A stretch of DNA of 64,000 nt from Progne subis subis (taxonomy: Eukaryota; Chordata; Aves; Passeriformes; Hirundinidae), in NCBI GenBank assembly GCA_022316685.1, contig JAKJHU010000155.1, positions 434,001 through 498,000 of the forward strand, given 5' to 3'. Shown piece by piece: positions 44,615 through 64,000 of this stretch (position 1 is its first letter; each line of letters starts with the position of its first letter). Under the pieces are notes generated by a model. That model was not told the origin of the DNA, ran no database searches, and was given only the letters and a program-made list of their open reading frames with translations. Made by a program: the position numbers and the translations under genes.

Positions 44615-45949
44615 TAATTCTCTGATATATATTTCTTTTCTTTCTGTTGGAAATTCATGAACATCCAGGAAAACCCAGAAGATTCAGGCTAGGTCTTATA
44701 TGATCCACAAAAACCTAAAATGACTAAAAGTACCCGTCACTACCTTGTGAAGAAATTAATTCAGGCTTTTATGACTTGGTTACACACACAGTGTGCCAGT
44801 GACCTGCAGCATTTTGGTGTAGTCCAGTCACACACAAGCCTATTCATTTAATGACATTTGATAATGGAATTCCAGGTGGGCAGTTGTTCTCAGCCCTATA
44901 CATGGGTGACACACTGAAGTTACTGCTTTTTACAGCCTGAGAAGGAGACAGTCTTCACTTGAACAAGTGCAGGCAAGCCAGAGAACCTCAAACACAGAGG
45001 TCAAAAGAAAAAAATAAAAAAGGGAATAAAGCAATACAATAGACCAGGCACAGAATAGGGAAGGCAGCAGGCAGCTGATCAAGCTCACACATTCATTCTG
45101 TTCCAAGCTGCAACTCAAAGGACAATCTAGTAAATATTTTAGGGAACTTCTAGAGAAACACCATAATCACACAAAACACTATCAAAGTAGAATCCATCTC
45201 AGACAAAGAACATTGTGGGCTTCAGGGAAAGGTGAATCCTTGCATGAAAGAATGTGCCCAGTTACACAACTCATGGGGAGAAGCTCCACTTTAACTCCAC
45301 CCAGAGACCAGCTCACACCTGGAGCAAGGAGTATGTGGACCAGTATCATTTTACCCCACACACCACAGTTGTGCATTCTACTGTCACTCCTTCCCAAGAA
45401 TGACTTGAGTCACCTTCTGTAAGGCTTAGTGACTTCTTAGTGACACTTCAGTTCCAGGGTGGAGTGGGAGGCTCTTCTTGGGTTCTGCACTGCAATCAAT
45501 TACCATCATATCAGAAATTCCTTTGTGCGAATCAGACCGGCGGTTGATTTGAAGGGGAGAGAAGTTAACTTCCAGCCTCAGGAAGTAGGGAGCACCAGTT
45601 CTAGAACGAGGGTAAGAAAGTCAACAAAAAGGGCAGACTATTTCCTAGGGCCAGGAACAAGTGTCTGGCGGTGGTCAGCTAACCTCGCCCGCCCCACCAA
45701 GCCCTGAGCCTTCCTGCATGCCTGAAGAACTGAAGCAAGCAAAGAACACATAGTTGGCACAGAAAGTGGTGGAACAGGTTAATGCGTTTGGGCCACGCTA
45801 GCTTCATTTATCGATAGCTTTGCAGAGATCATGGAATCCTCCTCCCGTGCCCAGTGACAAATCAGACTGTCTTCTCAAGCACTGGATATTCAGGCCCACT
45901 AATACCCTCCCTGTTTATCAGCTTTCTCCTGCCCTAGGCTGGAGAGGAC

Positions 45950-47330
45950 ACGGTAACCCCAGCAGCCTGCCAGGGCCCGGTGACACGGCCGCAGGCAGCA
46001 CCCCTGGTGCCTGCCCCTCGCCCTCCCCTCCCTGCTGTCGACAGCCAGAAGAGAGGAAGAGGACGAACAAGGACAGAACTGTCCCAACTGCCCAACGTCT
46101 CCATCCAGCTGCCCGGAGTCCGGCTCACAGACCGGCAACACGGACGCCCGGGACAAGGGACTGCAGCGCGGCGAGCGTGGGCCCCGGCGCGGCCCCTTTC
46201 CCCAGGGGGTCCTGGGAGCCGCTTTATCCGCGCTCTCCTCAGCGCTGCCAGCGCCCGCGGCTCCGGTTTCAGAGTGGGAAGCGGCTCTGCGCGCCTCCGG
46301 CACAAAGAGGCCCCTGTCCCCGCGGCGGAGCGGAGGCGCGGGCTCCAGAGGGAGGGAGGGAGGGGGAACCTCGGCAGCCCCCAGTGACGGGGCGGCGGCA
46401 GCGGGCCGGCCCCGGGAGGCCGGCGGCGGGGCACCCGGCGAAGCTTAGAGACGCAAAGGAAGCGAAGCTCCGCCGAGAGCTCCTCCAGCCCCTCGCGAAC
46501 AAACCCGCCGGGACCGCGGCTCCGCCGCCCTTCCCAGCCCCGCGCGCCGCCGCTCCCGCACCTACCGGGTGTCTCCGCCGCGCCTCCGGACGAACCGCGC
46601 CGAGCAGCCTCCCAGTCCCCTCCTGCCCACAGCCAGCGCCCAGCCGGGTACCGCCTCCCCCACCCACCCCCTTTCCATGAGGAAACTTTTCCCTCGCAGT
46701 TGCCAGCGCTTCCCGAGACGCGCTGCCCGCCGCGGGAAGGCGGCGCCGGGACCTGGACGGGTTCTGCCGCCAGGACCGCCGGCACCCCACGGGGCACAGG
46801 TCCGAAAGGCGCCGGGCCCGGGGGAGCGGTGCCCGCAGCGGTGGCCCCGCCGCTTACCTCGCAGGCGGCGCGGCGGGACGCTCGGCGGGCAGCGGCCACC
46901 TGGGGGAGGCGCGGGTTGGGCCCTCCCCCTATTTCAGCCGCGGGACTCGGGGGTCCCACCCCGCCTCCAGCAGCACCCGCGGGACGGGCCCGGGCTCGGG
47001 CCGCTCCGATGGCAGCGGCGGGGCAGCTTCGGCGCGGCTCCCGCTTCCCCGCCCCCGCCGCCCGGTCCTTGATCCAATTAACGGGAGCGGACTCTGCCCA
47101 GGCTGGTGGGGTCGGCGGAGGCTGCCGGGTGGGCAGCTCTGGCTCCCGTCGTCGTCCCCCACCTCCACCTTGGGGAGCGCCTGGAGCCGTGGGGTGAGGA
47201 GGGGACTGAGGGAAGTCTGCCTGGCCGGGATCCCCCTCGCGGTGGGGGTGGGAGGGAGGCGGCCCTGGGAGGAGCTGCCCGCTTGGCCCAGCCCTGAATT
47301 CGGCTCCTGTCCCTGAGTTCGTTCATCTGT
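45950..47330. promoter_or_regulatory. CpG island, probable PACSIN3 promoter and 5' exons
   Basis: A dense, CpG-rich stretch of about 1.4 kb in otherwise AT-rich DNA. On the minus strand it carries two consensus splice donors, TGCGAG|GTAAGC (exon side ends at 46858) and ACCCG|GTAGGT (exon side ends at 46566). These fit alternative non-coding first exons splicing to the PACSIN3 acceptor at 33153. The island lies about 3.4 kb upstream of the DDB2 island. Long ORFs across it are a GC-richness artefact. No transcription start was identified. Confidence 0.75.
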
Positions 47331-50300
47331 GCGCTGTACCGGCCGGCTGACCTTTAGGGCCCGGGGCCGCCCTGGTGTGTTGGAGCAGGAGGTTCCCCAA
47401 GGCCGGCTCCCACCCAAGTGAAGTGCTGTGGTCTCGCTTTGTGAAAGTGGCATGGGTCACACTCCCTGGGCTTAGAGGGTGGCATCGCCTCTCTTCGCCT
47501 TGGCATCCGTCTTTCTCTTTCAGCCCGATCCTGCTAACTGTTTTCAGTCACTTTTCCTATCCTCTGGAAACCTCTGGCTGAGTAATTCGGACATCATCTT
47601 TAAGTCCTCCGAGCCTTTCAAGTGACACCAGCTGTTTTCTAAATGCCAGGGAGTTTGGCTGCCAGCGTTTCCTTTTGTAACGCCAGGCCCCTGAGTGCAA
47701 TTTCCCCTGGGGCAGGGCTTGTCCAAGGAGCACTAGGAGACCTTGCTGGCCTGTCTCCTCTTGACTGCTTTCAAGTGACTTGGGACACAATTCCAAGGAG
47801 CAGTTGTGGGTTTGCAGTGATGTTTATTCAATTGGTGGGAAAAGGAAAGATTGAGAGCCTTGCAGAAGGAAGAGAGGAAAGAGCATGCCATAAATATTCC
47901 AGTTCTCTGGAGCAGTACTTGGGTGTTTTCCCTTTCTTTACAAGTGCCCTAGATTTCATCAGAGCCTGAAAAAAACTGTGCTGATGCCCTTCACACACAG
48001 TGAAATGCTGTGTTAGAAAATGGACATTAAAAACCATTCCACTTATTTCTTCTGAGACAAATTCTCTCTTCATTTTTACCAGTATAGGGTCCCTGGAAGG
48101 TGGACACCCATGACAGGTCATTGCCTATGGTGTCACCATGAGCGTCTTTTAAAAAAGTGAGGAAAGATGCTTATCTTGTCCTCAAAGTTAACTACAGTTG
48201 AGTGTATATGCAGTAACTTTGTCTTTTACTAAAACAAAACTGAACCCAACTCTGTGGCATAGATATTCCCTAATTCAATTAAGTTCTGAGTTTTAGATTT
48301 CCATTATCAAATTAATGGAAAAGTACATTATTGAGGATCAGAAAAAGCAAACACCTGTCATCCATTAACAGTGTTTGCCCTGTGTTATGTTCTCATGCTG
48401 ATTTCTATATCGAGATCCCATGTGCATCTCAGATAGAGTGTCTAAGACAGATGCTGTGCACGTGGAACCTGGCCACCGCCAGTACTGATTGCAAGGCGAG
48501 AGTACTAAATAGCACGGCTGCTGCAATGCTGTCTTCCAAGGCTTGGGGAAGACAGGGTGCTGGGCTAAAAGAGGTCATAATGATGGTGATCTTTTTGTTA
48601 GTTTTCCTGGTATGGGCAGCTTAGCAATGGTCGTGGGACAGAAGGAGGTCAGATAGCATGACATTTACTCCTTCATCTCTAAGGCTTTATATTTTTTTTT
48701 TTTTTCATTTTTCATGGAATATAGGGTTGTTTTCATACGCATGGCAAACTCTAGTTTCTCTAATGATATACACATCAGTAAAGAGACTAAAGTAGCTAAA
48801 AATATTCATGCTTTGGACAAAAAATCCGGGCAACAAGGAGGCAGAACACCTAATGATATTGCTAATACCATGAAGCTCATCTTAGTTACAATATAGCTTT
48901 ACCAGACTCAGTGACAAGACCACTTGATTCTGAGGGAGAGAGCCATGTCCCATAACTGAGGCAGAGCCTAAACACAATTGTACATCTGAGAAAAGGCATC
49001 ATAAAAATAAGCCTAATATCCTGTCCATGCAGAATTCTGTTTCTCTGACTTTGTTGCATACTGCAGTATGAAGAGTGTGAGACTGTAAATACATGAAAGA
49101 ATATTTTCTCAAATTAGTCTTTCTCTTGCTTGCTCAGAGTACCATCCAGACACTGAGCTGTGGGACATCAGGCCACTGGCATTCTTTCTGTGCATGAATG
49201 GTGTACTATCTGCTGTTCTTGCCTTAGTGGATAATAATTACAAAAATACCTCGTGATTAGTCTCTAGAGAGAAATCAAACTGTGTTAGTCATTGACACAA
49301 ACAATCTATTTTGCATGTGGCCTCATCTTGAGTACTGTCTGCAGTTCTGGAATTCAAAATTTAAGAATGATGTTGAAGTCCTCGACTGTGTCCAGAGTTT
49401 TGCTTGTCTAGGCTGGAGAAAAGCAGGCTGAGGGGTGACCTCATGGCTCCCTACAGCTTCCTGAGAAGGGGAAGTGGAGAGGGAGTTGCTGATCTCTTCT
49501 CCTGAGATCCAGTGATAGGATGCATGGGAATGGTTTGAAGCTGCACGAGGGAAGGCTTAGACTGGACATTAGGAAGCATTTCTTTACAGGCAGAAAAACT
49601 CTGGAATAATCTTCCCAGAGAGCTGGCCAATGCCCCAAGCTGTCAGTTTTTAAGAGACATTTGGACAATGCTCTTAATACCAGGCTTTAACTAGGTCAGC
49701 CCTGAACTGGTCAGGCAGCTGGACTAGATGTTCATTGTAGGTCGCTTCCATAGGAAATACTCTTTTCTACTCTTTTCTATTCTATTCCATTTCTAAAAAA
49801 ATGCTGACTGTGATAGCTCCAAGATGGAAATGTGTAGGTTACACTGGGTTTTTTTGCTAGTGGGTACAGTTCTAAGACAAATGCTGTGCATTACAAAAGT
49901 GCCTGATGAGACTTTAGGACTTGCTAATTGGGTTGATGTATATGTCAAAAACCAGATTGTATTCCTTATTATATTTTTGTGTATGGCATTCTGATACAGC
50001 AATTAATACAACTTTATTACTGTTCAGGGAAAAAGCATAGAGACTGAGTATTTGTTGTTTTTCTGGGAAGTTTTTCTCTGCATTTTCTAGTATGGGAGAA
50101 AATCCACAGGTAACTGTAGTTACAGCGCAAAAAATAGTGGCACCCAAACCCTACAGAAGCCATGGCTATGTACAGCTATTTTAGAACCGGTGTTCATAGC
50201 CATCTGTGTGGATGACTGTACCCTAATTACTCAGCATAGTTACTGGCAGGTCTGAAGCCGGGGACCTTAATGCTCCAGAGATGAGGGATAAGGTTCCCCA

Positions 50301-50680
50301 CGCAACATGGCCGGCAGACAGCAGCCTCCTTTGCAGGTGCGGGGGAAAGCGCTGCTACCTCCCTCTGTGTTGGTAGAGCTCTTCCTTCCTCATTCATATC
50401 AGCTTCGTCATGTAGGATCTGGTACTCTCTGAGCTGCTCTGACACTTTGTTATCAGCTTTTGAAGCCCCTTTTGTTGTTGATGGTCTTGATGCTTTTGTT
50501 GTGTTACACCACCAGGTGCATTTTCTTGCGGAAATGGTGTTTTGAATTTTTGTTGGTTTTGATTGCTGTGTTTGGGGCCCTTACGAAACAGCTTTAATAG
50601 GCCAATTTGATGCTCTAGAAACTAATGAGGGGCGTATGATTTTACGTGCTGCACCAAATAAACAACAGGCAAAGACGGAT
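47331..50680. other. intergenic region between PACSIN3 and DDB2 CpG islands
   Basis: About 3.35 kb between the divergent promoters. Apart from the CR1 element at 49307-49797 and a poly-T run near 48691-48705 I see no gene or RNA. Confidence 0.65.
49307..49797 (+). mobile_element. CR1 LINE fragment, plus orientation, with TTCTA tail
   Basis: The plus strand carries the CR1 pattern ATGTGGCCTCATCTTGAGTA, then CTGTGTCCAGAG, GGCTGGAGAAAAGCAGGCTG, GACTGGACATTAGGAAGCAT, GGCAGCTGGACTAGATGTTC, and ends in repeated TTCTA units (TACTCTTTTCTATTCTATTC). The subfamily differs from the 42-kb and 52-kb copies. Confidence 0.88.
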
Positions 50681-51480
50681 CGCGCCTTTCAGGCCAGCGT
50701 GGCGCTCGCAGCCGCCTCTCTCTGCCGGGGAGCCGGAGGCTGCTCACGCTGATGACCGGGGAGGCCGGCAGGGGTAGGGGCGTTGGAGGCGGGCAGGGGC
50801 TAGGGCCAGGCAAGCACCCTGAGCCCTGCCCAGCCTCCTTCTGTCGCTGCCGCTCTGCGGCGAAGGGTGGCGGGGCCCGCCACGGCCGGCGAACTCGGCG
50901 CCGCTCCGGGGGCCGGGCCGAAGCCGCTGCCCCGCGTTCCCGCCCCGGTTATGAAACCGCGGGGGAGGGGCCAGTGGCGGCCGCGGCGGCGCCGGGAGGG
51001 CCGAGGCAGCGCAGGTGAGAGCGGGGTGGTCTCTCCGCGGGGGCGCCGCGCCGGGGGCTGCGGGCCGGCCCGCGCCAGGCCCGGAGGCGCCGCAAGGGGG
51101 GCGCCGCCTGGGCAGGGGCCTGCGCGCTGCCCGCCCAGCTGCATTTAACGGGGCAGATAGCCGTGACGGCCGGTCAGGAGTTCTAAGTAAGCTCAACGCG
51201 GGCACGGGCTCAGTCTAGGGATGCTCTGCGGGAAGGAGCTGCGGCTGCGGACGGCGTTTGGCGCACGGCCCGCTGGCTGCAGAGAAGGCCGCGGGAGGCC
51301 CGTGCTTTTCCTCAGGGGCCTGGTGGCGTTGTGGCCGGCATAACACGGGAGGCGAGTGGCTGAATCCCACCGCTGCCAGAAGAGCGGTTCCGGTGTGGTT
51401 GCCAGGCAGTGCAGGAGCCCAATGCAAATACCGGGCGGTGGTTGTGAGGAAAAGTGGTCGTTATGCAGGAAATGCCTTCT
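50680..51480. promoter_or_regulatory. DDB2: CpG island and DDB2 first non-coding exon
   Basis: A CpG-rich stretch of about 0.8 kb just before the DDB2 start exon. The plus-strand donor GGCAGCGCAG|GTGAGA ends a likely non-coding exon at 51014, which splices to the acceptor at 51904. The exact transcription start is not visible. Unlike human, where the start codon is in exon 1, the ATG here is in the next exon. Confidence 0.72.
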
Positions 51481-51904
51481 GAGCCCATTTGTTGCGAGGC
51501 CAGTCAGCCCTGGCCATTGTCATAAAAACTGTGACCTTTCACTTAGCTGAATCTAAAGAGCTCGGTGTGAGCTACCAGAAAAACAGGGTATTATGTGGTT
51601 TCATAGACTTACTTTATGCAGATCTTTGGGTTTCAGTCTTAAACGTCTGGGAAAGCACATCTGTCAAAACATACTCTAGTGCTTTAGGATATGTTAATTT
51701 TCATATGTGAACAAAGAAGATTTTATTGAACCTGTTCCTCTCTTCAGTAGAGAACAACAAAAAGTTAGTATCATCCCAATAAAAGAGGATACAGGTCTAA
51801 TCACTACCTCCAGACTAACTGGGATTTGTTCTATTCTAGTTTTTCTCTCTGTCCTCTGGTTAAGAGTATGACAGTCTTACCTTCCATGCTTTGTTTGCTT
51901 TTAG
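51015..51904 (+). other. DDB2: DDB2 first intron (inferred)
   Basis: Runs from the GTGAGA donor in the CpG island to the TTGCTTTTAG acceptor. The first half is still GC-rich. No other feature was recognised. Confidence 0.65.
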
Positions 51905-51916
51905 TGGTTGGACAGA

Positions 51917-52088
51917 ATGGCTCCAGCGAACCAGTCAAAGGACAAGAAGCGTGAGAGGGCATGTCAACATTGGCCAGAAGAGGCAAAATCAGCTGGGAAG
52001 AGGAAACGGGATTATGGAGAACGAGGGAGTGAGAAACAAGAAAAGAAGTTGTTTGTGAGAAAAGCGTCTAAACTCTCAGGGAAAATCG
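51917..52088 (+). CDS. DDB2: DDB2 first coding exon
   Basis: The exon starts at 51905 after TGCTTTTAG; ATG at 51917 has a favourable context (ACAGAATGG). It encodes [52 protein letters not shown]; the donor is GTAACA at 52089. The MAP start and basic content match the human N-terminus. It ends one base into a Gly codon. Confidence 0.88.
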
Positions 52089-55000
52089 GTAACATTTCCT
52101 CAGATTCTTAACTCTTTCGGCCTACCAGATTTACTGCAAATGACAGGCATTGACTAGTTGAAGAGGGAGAATGTCAAGAAGCATGTTCAGACATGAGTGT
52201 TCAGGTGGGGTTAGGTGTTGGAGTAATAGGCAGACTTGTGCTGCATCCTCCAAGTTTTTGTTTAGTGACTGTGTGTGCATGCGTGTATGTTTAAGTTTTG
52301 AGACTCTGTACCACTGGGTAAAAGCCTGAAGGTGTTGTTGCAGCTCATTTGAGGGTGGTTAAGTTTTGTGGAATTCCTGTATTACCAGATCTCTGCTTTG
52401 GCGTAGGACAGACCAGTCTTGGTAATCCATTCTTACTCTCATGCAATTACAAATGTAGTTGTTAGTTTTAAGGTTGGTGTCCTACAGCATTCAGTCTGAA
52501 CTGATATTTGCACCCCATTCTTTCCCTATTCTAATTTTTGCTGCAGTAGGTAGGAATACTTTATACCTCTGTTCAGATTAGAATGGACAGAATTTCCTCT
52601 TATTACTTCTCCTCATGTGCATTTTTTTTTCCTTTTGTGTCTAACTTATATTAAAAAAAATCTCAAAGATTTTTGATGTAATGTGGAGCTGTGATTAATT
52701 TCTAATATACTGGAAAGTTTAATGCTTTGCATTATCGAGGGAGTTGTCTAGACTTTGCCTACAGCAACTTCATAGAATCATTTAGGTTCAAAAAGACCTT
52801 TAAGATCATAGAATCCAACTGTTAACCCCGCACTGCCAAATCCACCACTAAACCATGTCCTTAAGTGCCACATCTACACATCTTTTAAGTATCTTTGGGA
52901 ATGGGGACTCGTCTGCTTCCCTGGGCAGCCTGTTCCAATGGTTGACAACTCTTTCAGTGAAGAAATTTTTCATGACAGCCAACCTAAACCTCTCCTGGTG
53001 CAACTGGAGACCCTTTCCTCCTTCCTATCACTTGTTACTTGGGAGAAGAGACCAACTCTCCTCTCCCTACAGCCTCCTTTCAGATGGTTGTAGAGAGCAA
53101 TATGGTCTCCCCTCAGCCTCCTTTTCCCAGATAAAACCTTTATCTGTGGTTTAGGAGATCGCTAGGATTACTGCCTTGTGTGGAGATACTATGTGTTTTC
53201 TGTACAATTTTACTTACGGATCTGGCTTAAGGATCCAGAAATTACTGAAGTGTGTTTCAAAAGTCAGAAATACAGGGGTTCTTCGATTCTGCGCATTTCC
53301 ACTGTGTGGTCTGTAAGTCCAAACTTGGAGGAGTTAGCAGGGTGAACGGTGACTCTGGAGGCAAAATGCTCTGTTTGAAAGGAATTCTATCTATAACTGT
53401 AGATAGTTAAAACATCTTCTGTAGTTAATTTAGCTACATGATTTTATTGTAACTTCATTACTTGATTTTTGTATTTGGTAAGCATCTGCCATTCCTGTAA
53501 GATACTTCAGGAAAATGAGGCTAATCATATTTTTCCATTAAACCTTTCTTAAAAAGATGAAGACCTTAGTATTTGAGAAGTATAAAAGAGTACTTTTCCA
53601 TTCTGTGTTCCAGTTTGTATGTGTTTGGATTTTTTTTTCTCCTGATCAATATAGGACAGTTTCCGTTTCTTACAATTAAACCACATTTTTAGAAGGTTTC
53701 TTTCAGCTGATTCTAAAAAGGCCTGAAGCTTTGTTTCTTAATAAATTGTCCGTCATTGTAAAATGAAATCTGAAAAAAGTACCTCAATTTCTGTCACCTC
53801 TGAAGAAGAACCTGTGGGTACCAATTCTTCAGCAAAAAAAAGGAATTAGAATAGAAATACTTTTGTACCTATTTCAACAGGTGTGACAAGTGTTCTTACT
53901 GTGTTGGCATGTGACCAAAAACTGCTTTTCTCCATCATTGCATTAAAGAAAGATTTAATTTAGGTTCTAATCATATAGGATGATCCATGTATTTTCAGTC
54001 TTCTGTATTGTGTTGGTTTTTTTTTTTTTAGTAAGTGTCCTGAAATGAAAATAACATTTGTGTTTCTTAAGAAATGCATGTGACATTTAGATCCCCTGGA
54101 GTGTTGCAGACCACTGGTGTGGGGATGATTAGATCACAGACATGAGACTGAACAGATCTAGTTTTTACGTAAAGGTCCCTGAAGATAAAAAATTGGAACA
54201 TGAACAAAATGTAGAAACAAGCCGTGCTCTCAGCAAAAATCACTCTGAACAGAAAGGTTTTCAGGCGGTGAGATGTCAGCAAGTCTATTATCAAAACCGA
54301 AACTCGCAGCGCTGCAAGCAGACTGTATGGGCTACAGCGTGAGCAGACAGAAAGTTCTGATTCACAGCAGGAATTTCAGGAACTCTGTGGGACCTCATGT
54401 TGCCATACTTGGGAAATTTTCAGATGTTCCTGCTGATTGCACACGTGACACTTCTTTTGCTGTATGCAGGGGCTTGGCACCTCCCATGGCATATTTCCAA
54501 GCTGCTGGGGCTTTGGATATAAAACGTTCAAATTGTATGCTGTCCAAGAGGTACACCACCCACCTGTGGCATTGCTTTAGTCCTTTCCTGTTGTCTTTGA
54601 TAAATCTTCGGGAAAGAGGAGGAAGGTGTAACAAGAGGAATCATACACAAAACTCTGGTGGGCTATGGGATGCACTGTACTTCATTTATGCAGAAGCTGC
54701 TGCACCTTAGATGTGTAAGAATTATTTAGAGGTTTTTATCTTGTGGCTGAAGCTTTTAATGGATGTAGCAGCAAATGCAGATGTCTTCCTATATTGTTTA
54801 GTGAGCATGGCAGGTGTTGCTGATCAGTAAGTTTTACTCTTTTCCTCACTGGCAGGTTGCAGTGGAGGTGGGTTTGTAATGAGAAAGAAGAGAGCCCTTT
54901 CCTCTCAGCTGGAGCGGCGATGCAGCATTGTTCATTATGTCTACCAGAAAATGCTGGGAGGTTCCATTCAGGCACAGCTCAGGCAGGTGAGGAGTGTCTC

Positions 55001-58000
55001 TTTCAGGACCTGTTGGACATCTCGGCTCCCTACATAAAAAGATCTTCAACACAAGCAGAGGAACTTTTAGGAGCCTAAGAAGTTCCCCACATATACAGTT
55101 TGTGGCTCCAAGTCTGGTGCACCCTTATGTTTCTTAATCCTGTAAAATGCAAAAGCTGAGATGGCTTTCCCTTTTTGTTGACCCAGCCCTACCAATTTTT
55201 ATCCTCTGTTAATTCTGTACTTCCTTGAATCATATTTAAACTTGCCCACTCTCCCAGTTGAATTATTGCACAGTGATACTTTTGCATGCTGATCTGACTG
55301 TTTTGTGATACTGTTCTTGTATCCACTCTACTTTGCAAGTCTTATAAGGTTAAGTGTTGATTTTTTTTCCTCTTCACAGACGTAGCCATCAGGTCCATAA
55401 TGTTTTAGTGTTTTGCAGAGCCGAATGCCTTTCATTTGAAAATTAATTCTTTCTGTAACATCCATAGGTGGGAAGCACCTGGGCAAGCTTTGTTGTTAAG
55501 AATTTTGTGTGAACATACTAACACTAATGACAATTTAAAAATATTAGCAGTCCTCATTCAGAGAATTTCAGGGATGCTTGCAAAAGTCATAATTCCCTTT
55601 ACCTTTTTAACAGAGATTGGAGCTGGCTTTTCTGCGTTCTCTTTCCTCATACTGCCTCTTTCGAAGAGCAAGTCCCTTTGACAGGAGAGTGACGTGTCTG
55701 GAATGGCACCCAACACACCCCAGTACGCTAGCTGTCGGTTCCAAAGGTGGAGACATCATCCTTTGGGACTGTGAAGTACTTGCTAAAACCTGCTTCATAA
55801 AGGGGGTAAGTCTCTGTATGTGAGGAATGGGTGGGAGGGAAAACCAGGGTGCTATGAAATACTGCAGATGAAAACTGAGGTCTGTTGTGAGAAGCACATG
55901 AGGGTCTCAGGTTTCAGAGTAGCCAGTAATGGGTAGGACTGAGATGCATCAGCCTGTGTGTTCCCAAGTCCCACACTCTTCTAGCGCACTGGGGAGAACT
56001 GAGGCATAGTGATTAAGTTCATAATGAAGCTGCACTTGGTGTGTGCCCAGTGGAAAAATAATACAGCAACTGGCAAAACAGTTATCTTCGAGGTGGAATG
56101 AATGGTTTATACAGCTGGCATACCCCCTATTGCTGGATTCAGCCATTTCCATTCCAGCAGGGGTTCAAAGACCTTGTAATATTTTTCACATTTCTAAGTT
56201 AAGATAGATACACATTGGGAGGTCTATCCTCCAGAAATTCCAGAGTCACCTCGTTCTTTTTGTAAATAGTGTGGTGCCAGACAGCAAGGGAGTACCTTGC
56301 CTGGGGACTGAAGGAATTGCAGCTTTGTCCTCCAGTAGGGCAGCTCCTGGTTTAGACAGTTTAGACATGCAGGAGACATGGTTGTCTTTCCTGCTTAGAG
56401 GACTGTGGTGTGTTTCACTGTTACTGTTAAGAACATAGCAGTGCCTGCAGACTTAGAGAACACACTTTTCTCCTTCCCCATCACTCAGTGGAATTTTCTT
56501 TTGTTCATCCCCTTCCTTGTAGATGGGAGCTGGAGGGGCCATCACAGCAATGAAGTTTAACCCTTTTAACCCTAGTCAGCTGTACACTGCGTCAGTTGCC
56601 GGCACTACCACCCTGCAGGATTTTAATGGCCATACTGTCCGGGTCTTCACCAGCACCGAGGACTGGGAGTAAGAATTACAGTAATGCTTTGGGCCTCTGT
56701 GTCCTGCTGGCAGAAGCACTCCAGAGAGCAAGAGAAACAGAGAGAGATATGTTTGTCTCTAATATGTGAGAGCTGGGCTTTCTCTTTCCCATGTCCTTTA
56801 TCCTCTGAATTTAAGGGAGGCTCATTCTTTTTATTTCTCCTTGAAATGGGGTAGTGGGTAGGAAGGATCTTCTCACTGATGGGGACGGACTCTTCCTTTT
56901 GTACATGAGTGAATGGGGATCCAGTGGATTTCCTTAGTTGTCTGTTCTTAACACACCACAAAACTCTGTGCCCTGGGAGCCTTCTAACCTCTTCACCTAC
57001 TAGCAGTGCTGCTTGTTGTCAGATGGTTTTTACAGGACAATTCATAGTTCTCGCCATGCTTCTCCACAAATGCCACTGACTTCAAGCAGTGCCTGCCATT
57101 AGGGTCATGCTAATTCATCCCACTGAGCTTCTGGTGCTTATCTAAAATACCAAAATTAAGCGTCTGGGTTCCTTCAGTAGTGAGCGAAAAGAGGAGATGA
57201 ATTGCTAGAAGCAGCTCCCAGAATTATCTTCTCAAGACTGTTGTTTTCCTGTGGACTCATGAAGAAGCCTGAGCTCTTTGGTTAGTTACTTGAGTTCTGT
57301 GCTTGAAGGTGAGAGAATTTGAGTTAGCCTTCACTTTACTTTCCCCCACCTAATTCTTTCTGCGTGCAGCTTTCATGGTGACTTTTTAATTTGGCTGTTC
57401 ACCTGCAACATAGGGCAGAAGGTGAATCCAAGTCATGCTGGGATGACTGGTGGGGTGAGCAAGGAGAGATAAACTGGGTCCTGAGACATGAGGATCTTGT
57501 ATCCCAGTGGGATGCCTGTCACAATAGTGATGCCTGGATTTGAAAGGGCATACCATCCTCCTACTGCTGTGTGGACAGGCAGGCTCTATGAGCAGGGCTT
57601 TTTTATCTTCATTGGCCTCCTGCAACATAGTATTTACATTGAGACTTAAGTAGTTGTTCTGTGAGCAGCAGTTGGAGCGTACTTGAGTACCGAAGAGTTT
57701 GGGGACTCCCAGCTAGCTTTGTTTTTTCCTGTCTTTTTGTAGGTTTCCACTTTTCCTCAGTAGACAAGCTGGAGGAAAACAACAGAACAATAACAATACA
57801 ACATAGCAAAGAATATAAGATTCCTGTGCCATGGGGTTAGCAGTAAGATTTGCACTTGGCTTTTCCTGCTTGTTGGTACCTTGAGAAAGACCAGATACAG
57901 CACTGGAAGCAGCCTGTAGGGAGCTACTCAGTGTAGTCTATAAGAAAAGCTTGGTACTGGGCTATCATGAGGTTTTATGTGGTTTATGCATGGAATAGTG

Positions 58001-61000
58001 CTGGTGTTGCTTGTGATCTCCTAAGCATGGTCTGAGCCAGGTGGTTCACTGCAGATTCGTCCTACCTCCAGAACAGAAGCAGCAGTGCTTCCTGCTAATG
58101 CGGTCTGCAGCCCAAAGTTTGAAGGATCAGAATTTATGCGCTCGGATGTGAAACAGGTTAGAAAAAAAGAGTTCTTGTGTATGTGCTCTGCCAGAAAGCG
58201 GTGCTTGTACCTAGAGAAACTGACAGTGTGTACCAGGAGGTGACTGTTGAATTAAGATTTTCACTTTCACTCTAACCTTGATGTCTCTTGGCTTTGTGTG
58301 TATTTCAGAAAGGGCCAGGAGATTCTCTCGGAGACATCAAGTTCAGTCCTTATGAGGCAGAGAAGCTTTATGTGGCATCAGGTGATGGCACCCTAAGTCT
58401 GCAGGATCTTGAGGGCAGAGCGGTGCAGGTGATCTCTCGTGCCCTGGACTGTGGCCACGAGCATCATAATGTTTGGTGAGAAGAGGGCACTTGAAGGTTA
58501 ATTCTCTGTTCCTTGGGGTTAATGCTGTGTTGCTTATCTCTGCCAGTGTCAGGAGACTCTTGGTTTGAATTGGTCTCATGGGGAGCTTGGAGACAGAGTC
58601 CTGGTTGCTAGGCAGCCACAGGGCACTTAGGCTTTTACATTAGCTGAGTGTGCTGCCCGCATCTTCCCACATTACTTTCTGGTGATGCCATCTCCTGTCT
58701 TGCAGATACTGACAGCTTTTCCATATCTGCAAGACAGGAGATGGCATCACCAGAAAGTGTGAGGTGAGAAGAGCAGGGTAACTTCCCTCTCTTCATTGTT
58801 GTCAGTAGTCTGTTTCGTCAGTGGAATCCAGCTCAGGTAGCATAAGGAAAGCCACACAACATTCCTGCACAATTTGAGTTTCAGTTTATTGAGTTTACCC
58901 TGTGGCCCTTTTGCAGACTTCAGGCTCACTAGGTTAATTTTCTGTGGCCTTGAATTCTTAGAATAATTTGTCTTGCAAGTGAAGCTTTTGCAACAAGTTC
59001 CCAAAGGATCCCAGCTTTACTCTCACTGTCCTTCTCCTGGGAGAGCTGGCAGAAAGCCAGCTTATCAGATGTTTTTATCAGATAAGTTTCTATTCAGTCT
59101 TGTTTCCTGGAGCTGTGAAGTTGAGATAGTTTGATGTGCAACTTTTCAGTCCAAAGCTTCTGTCTTTGTTGCTGCTTCAGTGTTTTGTGGAAATGTAATT
59201 TTAAAGCTGTTTCTCCACATTTGTCGAAGTCCCAAGGATGCTCTGATCTTTCCCAAGGTATTTTCATGTGCAGGCACCAAGTGGTTCTTCAGCAATGTGT
59301 TGCAATGTGTTACACTACACCTAATAAGCACTTCAAAATTACTTTGAAGTTGTTTCACATTCAGTCACCAACAGAAAACATTGTTGATAAGCTGTCCTTC
59401 TTCCTGATACTCAGGCCCACACCACTCAGGCAGGAGATTGCAGTCAGTTGCAGTCTCCCTTGTCAGGGAGGAGATGTGAACCAGAACTCCGCTGCCTTCA
59501 CTTTTCTCTAGGAACAGCACTGATTTGTGTCTTTCCCTCTAGTTGCTGGTACTGCAGTGTGGATGTTTCTGCAAGCTGCCGTGCCGTGGTGACAGGTGAT
59601 AATGTGGGCAATGTGGTCCTGCTCAGCACTTCTGGTGAAGAGGTTTGTATGGCTCCATGCAGCATCTCCTCTGCAGGAATCTTCATGGCTCATGTGCTTT
59701 CCTACTCTACAGGGACCCTGGAAAGAGTAGCAAGTGGCTTGCAGCTCAGGAGATGAGTTCACTTATTGTCTGGGTGGTGGGAAACACTCCACTTCTGCCA
59801 CCCAGTAGACGTTTTACATTGTTGAGTGTAATGGTAATAATTTCTAAACCTGTCATGTGCTACCCCTTCCTTAAGAGTATTTGCTACTAGCCAGAGTAAT
59901 TAATTATAGGGTAACCTGAAGATGTGAGCACCCTCTGCCAACAACTTTCACACTTCCAGAAACTTAGTGCCCTGATGGGAGTCATTTAGGAGCCACTGCG
60001 TTGCTGTACACCCCTCCCTGACCTGGGGATAGGCACGGAGCAGTGAATATTGGGATGGAAATTGCACTCCTGCCCTTGGACACGAGAGGGCAGGCAGAGG
60101 CAGACTTTGAGTCTGGAGTAGTAGCGGAAAGAGGAGAGAATAGTTGGAGTGGGCCCTGCTTCAAGAGCCTGCTGTACTGTCACAGTGGCACTGCCCTCTT
60201 TCCTGCACATAAGGGTAATATCTGTAAAAGTTTGCTACCCAATGAGCTGTGGTCAGAGGCAGCTGTGTAAAGCAGTGGGCAGAATCAGGAGTGCTCCAGG
60301 TAACTTGTCTTAATGTTAGTTGCTGACTTACTTTTTGTCCCCTCTGAAAGAATGTGACAGTTTTTTCTGCAGTTGGGAGGTGTCCATTATTCTAGGGAGA
60401 ATGGCCAGCTTCAGCCTTTAGATTAGAGATAACCTTCTGGCTTTTACAGAAATTTATTCATGGCTGCTTTGTGTTTGTTTGTTGTAGTTGATTGAAATAT
60501 TTGTCCTACCCTCATGTTTCTTTGCTCATGTGTTTCTAGAAGCCAGTTATATCTCCTCTCACCTTTTTTACTTAAAGAAAGGTTTTTTGGTTTTCCACAC
60601 AAAGCAGTTCCTTCCTTCTTTTTATCTTGGCAGTAGATTTTCTCTACATGTTCCAGTTTGTTTAAATCTTTCTACAAGTGAAAGGCTGGTACTGCTTAAA
60701 GTCTTCCAGATATGATCTTGCTTTGTGCAGTGGCACTAATACCTCTCTCCATGTAGGCCAGGGGTTGTGCTTTCTTTTCTCATAGGTATAATAAATTGAC
60801 AGATCAGAGTTTTTCTAGAATGGAATAGTGACTTCCCAAGGTCATTCTTTTAATTTCTTGTTTCCAGTGAATACACTCTTGATGTATTTTAGAAGTTTTT
60901 TTACTCATTAAATATGAGACCTCTTTACTCGGCACTAGGAGATTATAATTTATTTTTTTTTACTCCAGATCTTGATTATTTTTTTTACATTATTTTCTGT

Positions 61001-63296
61001 TTGCTGCAGATCTGGAAGCTGAAATTGCACAAGAAGAAAGTGACTCATGTAGAGTTTAACTCCCGATGTGAGTGGATGTTTGCCACAGCATCTGTGGATC
61101 AGACAGTCAAAATCTGGGACCTCAGAAATATCAAAAACAAAACAAACTTTCTTCATCTGCTTCCACATGAGAAACCTGTCAATGCAGGTGAGTTAAGGAT
61201 TTCTTTGCATAGATGTCTGCAGAGAGTCCAGTCGACTCAGCTTTTATTGTGGTGGTAGTGTTAGGTTTTACTCAGATACCAAGTTGCATGCTAATTAAAG
61301 GAAGGAAGCTATTGGGAATGTGTGGCCAGAGGCAGGGAGGTGGCTAGGGCAGCTGCAGCACTTTTTTAAGACTTGCCATACAAATTTTGACACTGTACCT
61401 TAGAAGTGAGTTTGAAAGCAGCAATGGCTGAGATTAGAAAACTGAATTTATTGGGGCAATCCTTTTAACAAGAGCAGAAAATGGAACTCAAACCTCTGTT
61501 CCTTGGGTGCAGCTTTACCAGTTGATGGGAGTCCAAGCTGCAGGTGTCCATCTCATTATTCTGCTGTCTTTCCATTTGAATGAGCAAGTTCCTTGCTTTG
61601 CAATGTTTCCTCCTGTGATTCTGAAATGAGAAAAAATTTTCTTCTTAGGTAACCCGGCATGGTAGGTTTCAGCTTACTTTTTGTAAGAGTTTTGTGTTGG
61701 AGACAGGTAGTCTGTCTTGTCAAAGTCTTATCTGTTGGGACACAGCCATATTCACATCCTAATTAAAGAAATAGCGATGGATTTTCAATCAGCGAAACGT
61801 GACACTATGTTTCTTGTCAGTCACAGCATTGTGATCTTTAGTTTTCCTTATTGTCCCACTTTCCTAGCTTACTTCAGCCCAACACATGGTGCCAAGCTTC
61901 TGAGCACAGACCAGCACAATGAAATCAGGGTTTATTCATCTTCAGACTGGACCAAGCCACAGCATCTGATTCCACATCCACACAGGCAGTTTCAGCACCT
62001 CACACCTATTAAGGTAAGTCTAAGAGGAACATCATGCTTGGTGCTAGCAGCCATCTGCAAATCAGAAATGGTCTGATTTGGTCAAGGTGCTGTACTGGTG
62101 GGTGGATTATTTACACTGCTGCTGCTCCCAGTGGAGCACTGTTCCTCAGCCAGTGGGTGGGATAGAGTAAGAACTTCTCCCAATGTCAGTTGTGTGGATT
62201 ATGTCCCTTTCTCTGCGCTCTCCATGACTCTGTTCTCTGATCAGGCAACGTGGCACCCTCGCTATGACCTCATTGTGGTGGGTCGCTACCCAGACCCCAA
62301 GTTCCCTGGGTACACTCTGAACGAGCTGCGAACCGTGGATGTGTTCGATGGAAACACCGGTGAGATGGTTTGTCAGCTCTACGATCCAAATGCATCGGGG
62401 ATCATCTCGGTGAGTTGAGCGCTGCAGCTGAAAGGGCTGTCAACAACGCTGCTCTGCCTCTGGGAAAGAGGCATGGCTTAGGGACTGGAACCATATCCAG
62501 CTTACTTGTGACAGACTCAGGCTGTCATGGGATGTGGCTGCCAGCTAAAACTTCTGACTCAAGCAGGGCTAGGCCTTGGTCCTTTGTGGGGTTTTTGTGA
62601 TACTCTTAGGGAACTCTGGTTTTTCCAGAGGGTTTGTTGCTGTTATATAACCTGTGGTGCTCTTATGACTTACATAAGCAGTGATGCTCTTACAGACTCT
62701 TGTGTTTCCATTTTCAGCTCAATAAATTTAACCCTATGGGAGACACACTGGCTTCTGGCATGGGTAAGTAAAGAGAACTTGGGTTCTAGGCCCAGAAAAG
62801 GGCTGGCTTGTTATTCCATGTGATCCATGAAGCAGTAGAAAAAAACAATGGAGGGGGGAAAGCCTTTTCCTGCAGGGCTGTACCTGTTTCCCTTTGTTTC
62901 ATTTATCACATTTCCTAGGCTGCAGAGCCAAGTTTAGTCAAGCTTCTTGCAGGCTGTGTGGGATTCAGTTAGCTGGCTATAGATTTGGGTCTTAGACCTG
63001 TGACAGAAGAGACTAGGAATTACTTATATTTCTTAGTTAGATCTGTGGACACAGCATCTACAATAGCTATTTTTGCATCCTCTATACTTTGGAAATACCT
63101 TAGGAAAAGTCTTTTGAATTTCTGGCATTTAAGTGCCATAGCCTAAGGTATTATGATTGATGCAGAGTTTCTGATACGCAGCATTTAACTTTTCTTCTCA
63201 GGCTTTAATATTCTGATCTGGAACCAGGAGGAGATGGCAGCCAAGAAGCATGAACATCTTTTGAAAGCCATGACAAATGAGGAGATTGAACCGTGA
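51917..63296 (+). CDS. DDB2: DDB2 (XPE), WD40 subunit of UV-damaged DNA-binding complex
   Basis: DDB2 finds UV photolesions in chromatin and links them to DDB1-CUL4 ubiquitin ligase in global-genome repair. The standard path joins ten coding segments: 51917-52088, 54856-54986, 55614-55805, 56523-56668, 59543-59642, 61010-61187, 61868-62013, 62245-62409, 62718-62763 and 63202-63296, giving 456 aa. The N-terminal 57 residues are Lys/Arg-rich. [13 protein letters not shown] (about 80-92) corresponds to the DDB1-binding helices. The seven-bladed WD40 includes [24 protein letters not shown], the DDB1-contact motif WDLR (283-286; R286 corresponds to human R273) and the lesion-probing FQH hairpin (348-350, in [13 protein letters not shown]). 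The C-terminal tail is longer than in human. An alternative exon, 58309-58475, replaces 56523-56668 in frame and would give 463 aa. Confidence 0.96.
52771..53140 (-). mobile_element. CR1 LINE 3'-end fragment, minus orientation
   Basis: It begins CATAGAATCATTTAGGTTCA, continues AAGACCTTTAAGATCATAGA, CCACTAAACCATGTCCTTAA, CCTGGGCAGCCTGTTCCAAT, CAGTGAAGAAATTTTTCATG. This is the antisense of a relatively well-preserved CR1 3' end. Confidence 0.95.
54142..54713 (+). other. two overlapping unidentified open frames in DDB2 intron
   Basis: Frames of 66 and 145 codons overlap at 54273-54342. The first ([20 protein letters not shown]...) crosses a GTGAGA donor-like site near 54269 but has no convincing acceptor in front. 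No protein family was recognised for either. They are most likely chance or remnants of a mobile element. Confidence 0.25.
54856..54986 (+). CDS. DDB2: DDB2 coding exon, DDB1-binding helices
   Basis: The acceptor is CTCACTGGCAG and the donor GTGAGG. It encodes [43 protein letters not shown]. The SIVHYVYQ part aligns with human SIVRTLHQHKLG. The nearer AG (TTGCAG, 6 bp on) would give an early stop, so the upstream acceptor is chosen. Confidence 0.9.
54987..55613 (+). other. DDB2: DDB2 intron
   Basis: Intron of 627 bp with no recognised feature. Confidence 0.8.
55614..55805 (+). CDS. DDB2: DDB2 coding exon, WD40 blade 1
   Basis: The acceptor is TTTTTAACAG and the donor GTAAGT. It encodes [64 protein letters not shown]: 64 codons, phase 0 at both ends. 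The human DNA-contact residues R112 (PFDRR) and K132 (GSKGGD) are retained. Confidence 0.96.
55806..56522 (+). other. DDB2: DDB2 intron before exon A
   Basis: Intron of 717 bp. Nothing was recognised by eye; it would be a place to look for docking sequences if exons A and B are mutually exclusive. Confidence 0.75.
56523..56668 (+). CDS. DDB2: DDB2 exon A, WD40 blade 2 (canonical)
   Basis: The acceptor is CCTTCCTTGTAG and the donor GTAAGA. It encodes [48 protein letters not shown], ending after two bases of a codon. It closely follows human [20 protein letters not shown] and the zebrafish equivalent, so it is the ancestral exon. Its phases (0 in, 2 out) are identical to exon B at 58309. Confidence 0.95.
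56669..58308 (+). other. DDB2: DDB2 intron between exon A and exon B
   Basis: About 1.64 kb without recognised repeats. Exon B follows. Confidence 0.75.
58309..58475 (+). CDS. DDB2: DDB2 exon B, alternative WD40 blade 2
   Basis: The acceptor is GTGTGTATTTCAG and the donor GTGAGA at 58476. The open 167-base exon encodes [55 protein letters not shown]. About 17 of 42 residues match exon A, including G-G, KF-P, LY-AS, GT, LQD and the V-V pair. It enters at phase 0 and leaves at phase 2, so it can only replace exon A: 55805 joins 58309 in frame, and 58475 joins 59543 in frame. It adds acidic residues and a His-rich end relative to A. Direct inclusion with A would shift the frame. Confidence 0.8.
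58476..59542 (+). other. DDB2: DDB2 intron after exon B, with perfect hairpin
   Basis: Intron of 1067 bp. It contains the 35-bp perfect inverted repeat at 58674-58758 and a 10-bp tandem duplication (CAATGTGTTG/CAATGTGTTA) near 59293-59312. Confidence 0.8.
58674..58758. repeat. perfect 35-bp inverted repeat, 15-nt loop
   Basis: The arms at 58674-58708 and 58724-58758 are exact reverse complements; the loop is CTGACAGCTTTTCCA. The transcript would form a 35-bp hairpin without mismatch, starting 198 bases after the end of exon B. Confidence 0.95.
59543..59642 (+). CDS. DDB2: DDB2 coding exon, WD40 blade 3
   Basis: The acceptor is TTCCCTCTAG and the donor GTTTGT, which is weaker than consensus. 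It encodes [33 protein letters not shown]. It matches human [20 protein letters not shown]. The first T completes the split codon from exon A or from exon B. Confidence 0.94.
59643..61009 (+). other. DDB2: DDB2 intron
   Basis: An intron of 1367 bp. Read-through of the weak donor stays open to 59756, which would give an alternative truncated end. No repeat family was recognised. Confidence 0.75.
61010..61187 (+). CDS. DDB2: DDB2 coding exon, WD40 blades 4-5 with WDLR
   Basis: The acceptor is TTTGCTGCAG and the donor GTGAGT. It encodes [59 protein letters not shown]. The HKKKVTHV (around human K244) and WDLR (human R273) positions changed in xeroderma pigmentosum E are both intact. Confidence 0.96.
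61188..61867 (+). other. DDB2: DDB2 intron
   Basis: Intron of 680 bp with no recognised feature. Confidence 0.8.
61868..62013 (+). CDS. DDB2: DDB2 coding exon with FQH lesion hairpin
   Basis: The acceptor is CACTTTCCTAG and the donor GTAAGT. It encodes [48 protein letters not shown]. The FQH residues insert at the lesion in known DDB2-DNA structures. The 231-bp intron 62014-62244 follows. Confidence 0.96.
62245..62409 (+). CDS. DDB2: DDB2 coding exon, WD40 blade 7
   Basis: The acceptor is TCTCTGATCAG and the donor GTGAGT. It encodes [55 protein letters not shown]: 55 codons, both ends phase 0. It matches human [19 protein letters not shown]. The 308-bp intron after it is unremarkable. Confidence 0.96.
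62718..62763 (+). CDS. DDB2: DDB2 short coding exon (46 bp)
   Basis: The acceptor is CCATTTTCAG and the donor GTAAGT. It encodes [15 protein letters not shown], matching human [15 protein letters not shown]. Confidence 0.95.
62764..63201 (+). other. DDB2: DDB2 last intron
   Basis: Intron of 438 bp with nothing recognised. Confidence 0.8.
63202..63296 (+). CDS. DDB2: DDB2 last coding exon and stop
   Basis: The acceptor is TTTTCTTCTCAG. It encodes [33 protein letters not shown] at 63294-63296. The [10 protein letters not shown] part corresponds to human YHILIWSQEE; the rest extends past the human end. The 3' UTR continues; no AATAAA was seen before 64000. Confidence 0.94.
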
Positions 63297-63553
63297 GAGA
63301 ACAGGGGATTGGAAGCTGGAGTTCATCCAGACATAGAGGGCAGAGGCAGGCAAACCCTGGCACAAGCAAACTCAAAACTAAGTTAATGTCTGGGGAGCTG
63401 GAGGAGATGAAAACAAAAAGCAGTAATTCTAAACTGCAGGGAAGGAAGTGAAAAGAAACGGATCTAGAGACCTGATTTAGTATTTTGATCCTTTCTGAAT
63501 CCCAGGGTACAAACTCAGTTGTTGGCAATGGGCAGTGTAAGCCGTGCAGGGAA
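63297..63553 (+). other. DDB2 3' UTR / downstream flank
   Basis: No gene or repeat was recognised. It overlaps the zone leading into the candidate minus-strand exon. Confidence 0.5.
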
Positions 63554-63904
63554 TTAGACTTTGTCCTTCCTTCCTGGATCTGAGTTGCTTCCCTGATCCT
63601 CTTGGCCTCCCTTTCTAGAAAGTTGTGTCAGTATTTGGTTCCTCCAATTGCTACTCGTTTTCTGAGGCACTAGGAAAACTTCCAAGATGTTCCTAGATCT
63701 TGCTGGAGTTACTGCTTTCAGCCTGCCATATCTGTCATCACTTGTCAGAGGTTCCCATTTCTTGTAGTCTGTAGTGGAGCAGCTCATGACAGGGTCCCCA
63801 GCCTGTTCTAGTCCAACCAACTTGAGAAACCATTTGCTAACAGGACTGATGTCCTGAAAAGATGGAACGTTCACAGGGGTGAAGTCATGGATAGCTTGGG
63901 TATC
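63554..63904 (-). CDS. candidate terminal coding exon of an unidentified minus-strand gene
   Basis: On the minus strand an acceptor-like site (TGTGTTTTCTAG, ending at 63905) is followed at once by an open frame of 116 codons to a TAA at 63554-63556. It begins DTQAIHDFTPVNVPSFQDIS and ends in a charged, Gly/Ser/Lys-rich tail. The composition looks protein-like, but I recognise no family. In human the next minus-strand gene is ACP2; its C-terminus as I recall it does not match. The frame could be chance, a terminal exon of another gene, or a mobile-element piece. Confidence 0.35.
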   Translation of the reverse strand, partial: DTQAIHDFTPVNVPSFQDISPVSKWFLKLVGLEQAGDPVMSCSTTDYKKWEPLTSDDRYGRLKAVTPARSRNILEVFLVPQKTSSNWRNQILTQLSRKGGQEDQGSNSDPGRKDKV

Positions 63905-64000
63905 CTAGAAAACACACCAAGCTCTCCCTTATGCAAGCTTGGAAAATGTTTGTTAAGACATCAGGCTTAGCCTGTTCTCTGCTTGCAGCTGTTTAACTGG
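63905..64000. other. window end
   Basis: The last 96 bases show a polypyrimidine/AG-type acceptor on the minus strand at the left edge and no other recognisable feature. Confidence 0.4.

Follow-up and report, generated by a model that had tools for sequence, protein, structure and literature searches.

A second exon 4 in DDB2

The DDB2 gene of Progne subis subis contains two homologous versions of exon 4, which we named exon 4A and exon 4B. The gene lies on the plus strand of a 64,000-nt stretch of genomic DNA (GenBank assembly GCA_022316685.1, contig JAKJHU010000155.1, positions 434,001 to 498,000), referred to here as the window, and all coordinates below are those of the window. DDB2 encodes the protein that first detects cyclobutane dimers in chromatin, and the gene is mutated in xeroderma pigmentosum group E (XPE). 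Exon 4A encodes the canonical blade 2 of the WD40 propeller and most of the lesion pocket. By its sequence, exon 4B is a genuine homologue of this blade, and it is probably an old tandem duplicate of exon 4 that has been kept as a functional, mutually exclusive alternative, with a predicted lesion pocket of its own.

Exon 4A (56523..56668, 146 nt) and exon 4B (58309..58475, 167 nt) both enter at phase 0 and leave at phase 2. Exon 4B is flanked by AG and GT dinucleotides and is open in phase 0. Either exon can be joined to exon 3 (55614..55805), which leaves at phase 0, and to exon 5 (59543..59642). The ten exons with 4A form one open frame of 456 residues (isoform A), and 4B in place of 4A gives 463 residues without a stop (isoform B). 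When 4A and 4B are joined, the frame is shifted and a stop is reached about 30 codons into 4B, with several junctions downstream; when both are skipped, the shifted frame stops in exon 5. Frameshifted, early-stop transcripts are expected to undergo nonsense-mediated decay, to which transcripts with both versions of exon 4, or with neither, would be directed. A preliminary description of this DNA, made from the letters alone, had given the coordinates, phases, splice dinucleotides and open frames of the two exons, and recomputing the spliced frames confirmed all of these, together with the frame logic by which the reading frame itself forces 4A and 4B to be exclusive.

Homology of exon 4B to blade 2

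Exons 4A and 4B encode 17 identical residues out of 45 aligned, or 18 of 46 if the Gly shared with exon 3 is counted. Over the aligned exon codons the identity was 18 of 47 (10 core and 8 other positions), and a MAFFT alignment gave 38%; the preliminary figure was about 40%. The local alignment score was 90, while the maximum in 20,000 shuffles was 47. Exon 4B is about equally distant from 4A (18/46), human DDB2 (16/46) and zebrafish DDB2 (16/46), whereas 4A, human and zebrafish share 24-27 of 46 residues with one another (A-human 27/46, A-zebrafish 26/46). The human and zebrafish proteins thus resemble 4A, as the preliminary description had it.

A query of 60 residues, consisting of exon 4B and the five following residues, was compared with the 177,635 distinct sequences of the PDB. 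Eight DDB2 sequences came at the top (E 2.1e-4 to 2.0e-3), their blade 2 aligning with the query within residues 2-45, and RACK1 followed at E 0.026. That DDB2 blade 2 heads the matches agrees with the blade assigned to 4B beforehand. When the 55 residues of 4B were searched against the whole genome (1.166 Gb in 2,896 contigs, only the best candidates being scored), three places were scored, namely 4B itself, exon 4A (E 0.004) and one place at E 4.35. As DNA, exon 4B has a single match in the genome. A tblastn search of the window with isoform A found its ten exons and 4B (E 1e-5), and no further copy of any DDB2 exon in the window at E up to 1; exon 4 is therefore the only exon seen duplicated there. 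The A-B homology, the gene order and the matching phases support the earlier proposal of a tandem exon duplication in DDB2.

Three other analyses added little. Pfam assigned general WD40 models to partial sequences of both isoforms (PF00400, 50.9 bits for A and 48.7 bits for B), a result which is uninformative on 4B because the best PF00400 stretch falls outside exon 4. In viral and prokaryotic contig collections, which are uninformative on other vertebrates, 4B gave 43 and 178 pattern matches, respectively, none of which was confirmed by tblastn. An AlphaFold2 model of exon B aligned with exon A was blade-like with four strands, but its mean pLDDT (predicted local distance difference test) was low at 58.3.

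Exon 4 and the lesion pocket

In the nucleosome structure 9J8W, which contains a cyclobutane pyrimidine dimer (CPD), residues G154, A155, G156, I200, N201 and W203 of human DDB2 directly contact the dimer (PMC12606344). According to the same source, I200 and N201 recognise the methyl groups of the CPD and are away from the lesion in the nucleosome complexes with a 6-4 photoproduct (6-4PP) or an abasic site. The shallow pocket of zebrafish DDB2 for the (6-4) lesion is formed by P191, I213, W236 and W239 (PMC4264169). The DDB2 chain of 9J8W was also among the sequences matched by exon 4B, with query residue 2 at chain residue 154. All ten contact letters fit the alignment numbering; the zebrafish offset was chosen to fit, and one offset suits all four zebrafish residues.

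When these contacts were placed on the Progne gene, four of the six human CPD contacts fell inside exon 4, N201 corresponded to the codon that the junction of exons 4 and 5 interrupts, and W203 was in exon 5. Three of the four zebrafish (6-4)-pocket positions were in exon 4. From the strand order of WD40 blades, the exchanged unit amounts to roughly one blade together with the two lesion-side loops that flank it. Mapped onto the published contacts, exon 4 is thus the exon that carries both loops touching the photolesion, except the Trp of exon 5. The preliminary description had suggested that a change of the first loop of blade 2 might affect lesion binding, arguing from a DNA-contacting Arg in the equivalent loop of blade 1; this can now be put more sharply, since the published contacts place most of the pocket in exon 4 itself. 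The residues that contact the backbone phosphates, R112, K132 and K244 in human numbering, correspond to exons 3, 3 and 6, which are common to both isoforms.

At the pocket positions isoform A has Gly-Ala-Gly, Val, Trp, Asp and Trp. Isoform B keeps the Gly-x-Gly contact (human G154-G156) as Gly-Pro-Gly, as in zebrafish, followed by Gly at the next pocket position. The first-loop change is therefore softer than had been claimed, since the Gly-Pro-Gly-Asp of B is the sequence of zebrafish DDB2. The second loop, in contrast, is replaced in B. Between the shared Val and the pocket Trp there are 16 residues in B, including a distinctive ten-residue segment, versus 9 in A; the loop is 7 residues longer, has many His and Cys residues (it holds Cys, Gly, His, Glu, His, His, Asn), and stands in place of the Trp/Ile loop. 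Isoform B is without the Ile/Trp and Asn/Asp of this loop (human I200 and N201) and has Val and Cys at those columns, depending on gap placement. The pocket Trp (human W203) is retained, as it is supplied by the common exon 5.

Splice sites and a predicted hairpin at exon 4B

Splice sites were scored with a weight matrix, and the ten acceptors and ten donors of the gene were compared. The acceptor of 4B scored 2.66 and was the second weakest of ten, only that of exon 7 being lower (2.41). Its donor scored 3.19, the fourth weakest of ten (exons 1, 4A and 5 are lower). Exon 4A has the top-scoring acceptor of the ten and a weak donor. The good splice sites described for the pair earlier are thus present as dinucleotides and score within the range of the gene, but those of 4B are among its weaker ones.

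A branch-point-like sequence, CTAAC (58272..58276), identified by pattern only, has its first base 37 nt upstream of 4B. Directly after it begins a predicted RNA hairpin (58277..58341), which extends over the 4B acceptor and the polypyrimidine tract before it and is part intron, part coding. Its outer stem is a perfect 11-bp pairing of 58277-58287 with 58331-58341. For the 95 nt folded, the free energy was -28.5 kcal/mol, with a modest z of -2.05 (7 of 200 shuffled sequences did as well). A large part of the pyrimidine tract is paired in this hairpin, which persisted in a 271-nt fold (z -1.45). Among the ten acceptor regions folded, that of 4B had the lowest z and the lowest mean unpairedness upstream of the acceptor (0.33), although exons 5, 2 and 6 were close (0.36, 0.37 and 0.37), and by summed pairing across the splice site (22.2) it was only fifth of ten. 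A Markov model gave a probability of about 6% for a perfect 11-bp stem with a loop up to 60 to occur anywhere in 55806-59542. For this reason the hairpin, which was noticed after the fact, is taken here as a lead only. The motif TGCATG occurs once in 55806-59542, at 57987, and was not counted as evidence. A search of Rfam gave no match in 50000-64000.

Selection or drift on exon 4B

Exon 4B has no stop and no frameshift, and both splice dinucleotides are present. It keeps 10 of the 18 exon-4 residues that are identical in A, human and zebrafish, versus 8 of 29 other positions. Neutral drift was simulated in 20,000 runs that start from exon A (47 codons, without CpG effects); the indel ratios are guesses, and the in-frame length difference between A and B was left out. 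A copy was counted as jointly intact if it was free of stops and frameshifts and retained both splice dinucleotides together with 10 or more of the 18 core residues. With a B branch of 0.5 substitutions per site, the jointly intact fraction was 0.00085, 0.0004 and 0.00005 at indel/substitution ratios of 0.03, 0.05 and 0.1, respectively. The pairwise synonymous distance (dS) between A and B was 1.15 by the Nei-Gojobori method and 1.44 by maximum likelihood (ML), which corresponds to about 0.6 to 0.7 per branch if the A and B branches are equal. The pairwise ML dN/dS ratio (omega) was 0.38, and omega fixed at 1 was worse by 5.13 in twice the log-likelihood difference (2dlnL).

Several observations weigh against retention of 4B as a functional exon. 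Eight of the 18 core residues are altered in it. The neutral expectation depends on the distance, and jointly intact copies rise to 0.7%, 0.26% and 0.03% at 0.4 substitutions per site, and to 3.1%, 1.5% and 0.25% at 0.3, for the same three indel ratios. The pairwise omega mixes A and B, and selection on A alone could lower it. The B branch carries 1.0 amino acid substitutions per site, about the level of free drift and three to five times the 0.20-0.32 of the other three branches. A model with A fixed and B drifting at 0.5 per site gave a mean identity of 17.7 of 47, versus 18 observed, and left 37% of the copies stop-free. The weak acceptor belongs with these points, as does a comparison with human tandem-exon pairs, in which predicted ligand-binding residues are kept in 80.6% (PMC9741552), whereas the DDB2 pair changes a lesion-contact loop.

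Since almost the observed identity is also reached when A is held fixed and B drifts, dN/dS alone was rejected as proof of selection on 4B. This qualifies the dN/dS check put forward in the preliminary description, for which the pairwise omega is favourable and the B-branch rate, being near neutral, is not. The inference drawn there from divergence and an open frame to long-standing selection is only partly supported: by substitutions alone B is near a drifting copy, but joint intactness is rare under drift. The case for constraint on 4B rests on joint intactness, not on the substitution rate. We infer from these figures that 4B was kept at least until recently, with its constraint relaxed or altered, and regard functional use of the exon as somewhat better than an even prospect.

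An ML tree of the four sequences (45 sites) favoured the grouping of B with zebrafish (p-AU 0.863, approximately unbiased test), the other topologies (0.201 and 0.111) being unexcluded. Long-branch attraction is possible, and the tree was set aside as evidence of age. If the weakly favoured tree is right, the exon pair would be older than the bird-mammal split and B would have been lost in mammals.

Alternative explanations for exon 4B

The most serious alternative, to which we give about one chance in four, is a decaying duplicate, in which 4B was once used and is now rarely or never spliced in, its intactness being due to a recent loss of its role or to luck. A B branch whose protein rate is near that of free drift, the second weakest acceptor of ten, the change of 8 of the 18 core residues and a hairpin that could bury the 3' splice site are all as such a duplicate would have them. 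Against this stands the finding that frame, splice dinucleotides and core are all intact together, which drift over the estimated distance would seldom leave, so that decay would need constraint until recently. It is unlikely that 4B mainly serves as a poison exon, lowering DDB2 levels through the frameshift that it causes after A and the decay which this triggers. The stop about 30 codons into B in the A+B form, with several junctions downstream, and the stop in exon 5 after a double skip would suit that role, but 4B has an open frame that fits both neighbours in phase and is homologous to blade 2, neither of which a poison exon requires.

An origin of 4B from another gene, from a larger rearranged block or from an assembly error is quite improbable. 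A perfect 35-bp inverted repeat begins 199 nt past the end of 4B and may reflect a local rearrangement or an assembly oddity; 4B, on the other hand, has one DNA match in the genome and sits in gene order on the gene's strand, and the window shows no repeat of another DDB2 exon. Least probable of all, and already contradicted by the data, is a chance resemblance of an intronic stretch to a WD40 blade exon. WD40 blades are abundant and degenerate, and one case was picked from a 64-kb window, but the alignment score of 90 far exceeds the shuffle maximum of 47, the PDB search ranks DDB2 before the other WD40 proteins, no place scored in the genome apart from 4B itself matches better than exon A, and phases and order match. 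A functional, mutually exclusive duplicate of exon 4 thus remains the explanation that we prefer.

Possible role of isoform B

If 4B is used as a functional alternative, isoform B would retain R112, K132 and K244 (human numbering) for contact with the backbone, along with the propeller and the parts that bind DDB1. Its pocket would be remodelled, with a Pro in the first loop and a longer Cys/His-containing loop replacing the Trp/Ile loop, and because of this remodelling isoform B would, in some tissue or state, favour another range of flipped-out lesions or another partner on that face. The Cys/His-rich loop may even bind a metal. On weaker grounds, A would be the default form and B a regulated one, because of the predicted hairpin that covers the 4B acceptor. 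A possible, though rather doubtful, consequence is that one gene encodes two UV-damage sensors, the exchanged blade giving CRL4-DDB2 a second lesion or substrate specificity, cut at about one blade and its pocket loops. This would provide a natural second specificity ready for comparison with the first pocket. It would also bear on the acceptance of varied lesions by UV-DDB and would be a case of alternative splicing that alters damage recognition itself. Even a dead 4B would be a clear trace of a past exon duplication in a DNA-repair gene.

Comparison with known tandem exons and DDB2 isoforms

Isoform A is an ordinary vertebrate DDB2, the WD40 lesion sensor of UV-DDB and CRL4-DDB2, and matches eight DDB2 sequences of the PDB at E <=5e-160. 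Unlike ordinary DDB2, the gene described here has a second exon 4 that would swap blade 2 and the pocket loops. Human DDB2 splice variants D1-D4 arise by skipping or truncation and are not known to exchange homologous exons. No duplicated DDB2 exon was reported among the matches listed (titles and beginnings of abstracts) in literature searches on splicing or birds, and DDB2 is unmentioned in the main texts of two tandem-exon surveys (PMC9741552, PMC9013439). A predicted isoform with 4B may already be listed in genome annotation databases.

Substitutions of tandem duplicated exons are known from SNAP25 exon 5 and OGDH 4a/4b, and PKM and ACTN1 are described as further cases (PMC9741552). The DDB2 exons are likewise adjacent and homologous, lie in one gene on the same strand with equal phases, and one or the other keeps the frame. 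Their identity of 38% is near the 37.4% given for human tandem pairs without binding residues (PMC9741552). The DDB2 pair appears unusual in that the exchange, as placed by alignment, falls on a binding pocket and alters it. OGDH 4a/4b is also a vertebrate mutually exclusive pair, and its exclusivity is ascribed to distant branch points (PMC7969005); in DDB2 the branch-point-like site is at -37, and exclusivity would follow from the reading frame by itself. A missense change at residue 346 of blood-pheasant DDB2 has been described (PMC7593199) and was not used as evidence; nor were PMC4648065 and PMC8391564, the latter of which names DDB2 once.

DDB2 gene model and other features of the window

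The DDB2 gene spans 51917-63297 on the plus strand and was modelled from splice sites and frame as ten exons plus the extra exon 4B. Against the PDB, isoform A matched zebrafish DDB2 at E 5e-166 and human DDB2 at E 1e-160, from residue 79 or 81 on. The coding part of exon 1 (51917..52088) has its start codon at 51917 and a weak donor. The model is least secure at exon 1 and the start, since no residue before 79 was matched to known DDB2. Exon 2 (54856..54986) is where that match begins, at residue 79. Exon 3 carries the equivalents of human R112 and K132 and is the upstream partner of both 4A and 4B, and exon 5, their downstream partner, encodes the pocket Trp. Exon 6 (61010..61187) carries the K244 equivalent. 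Exons 7 (61868..62013), 8 (62245..62409), 9 (62718..62763) and 10 (63202..63297, including the stop codon), all on the plus strand, were placed by the gene model and the match to known DDB2.

The inverted repeat downstream of 4B occupies 58674-58758, with a 15-nt loop. So perfect a repeat points to a recent local event or an oddity of the assembly, and as RNA it could fold into a strong hairpin. An open frame at 52848-53024 on the minus strand may, by a motif, be the 3' end of the reverse transcriptase of a CR1 LINE (long interspersed nuclear element). Upstream of the gene, long overlapping open frames on both strands at 45800-47320 look GC-rich by their codons and resemble a CpG-island promoter. 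An open frame of 126 residues at 18596-18976 on the plus strand has a protein-like composition and is possibly an exon of a neighbouring gene.

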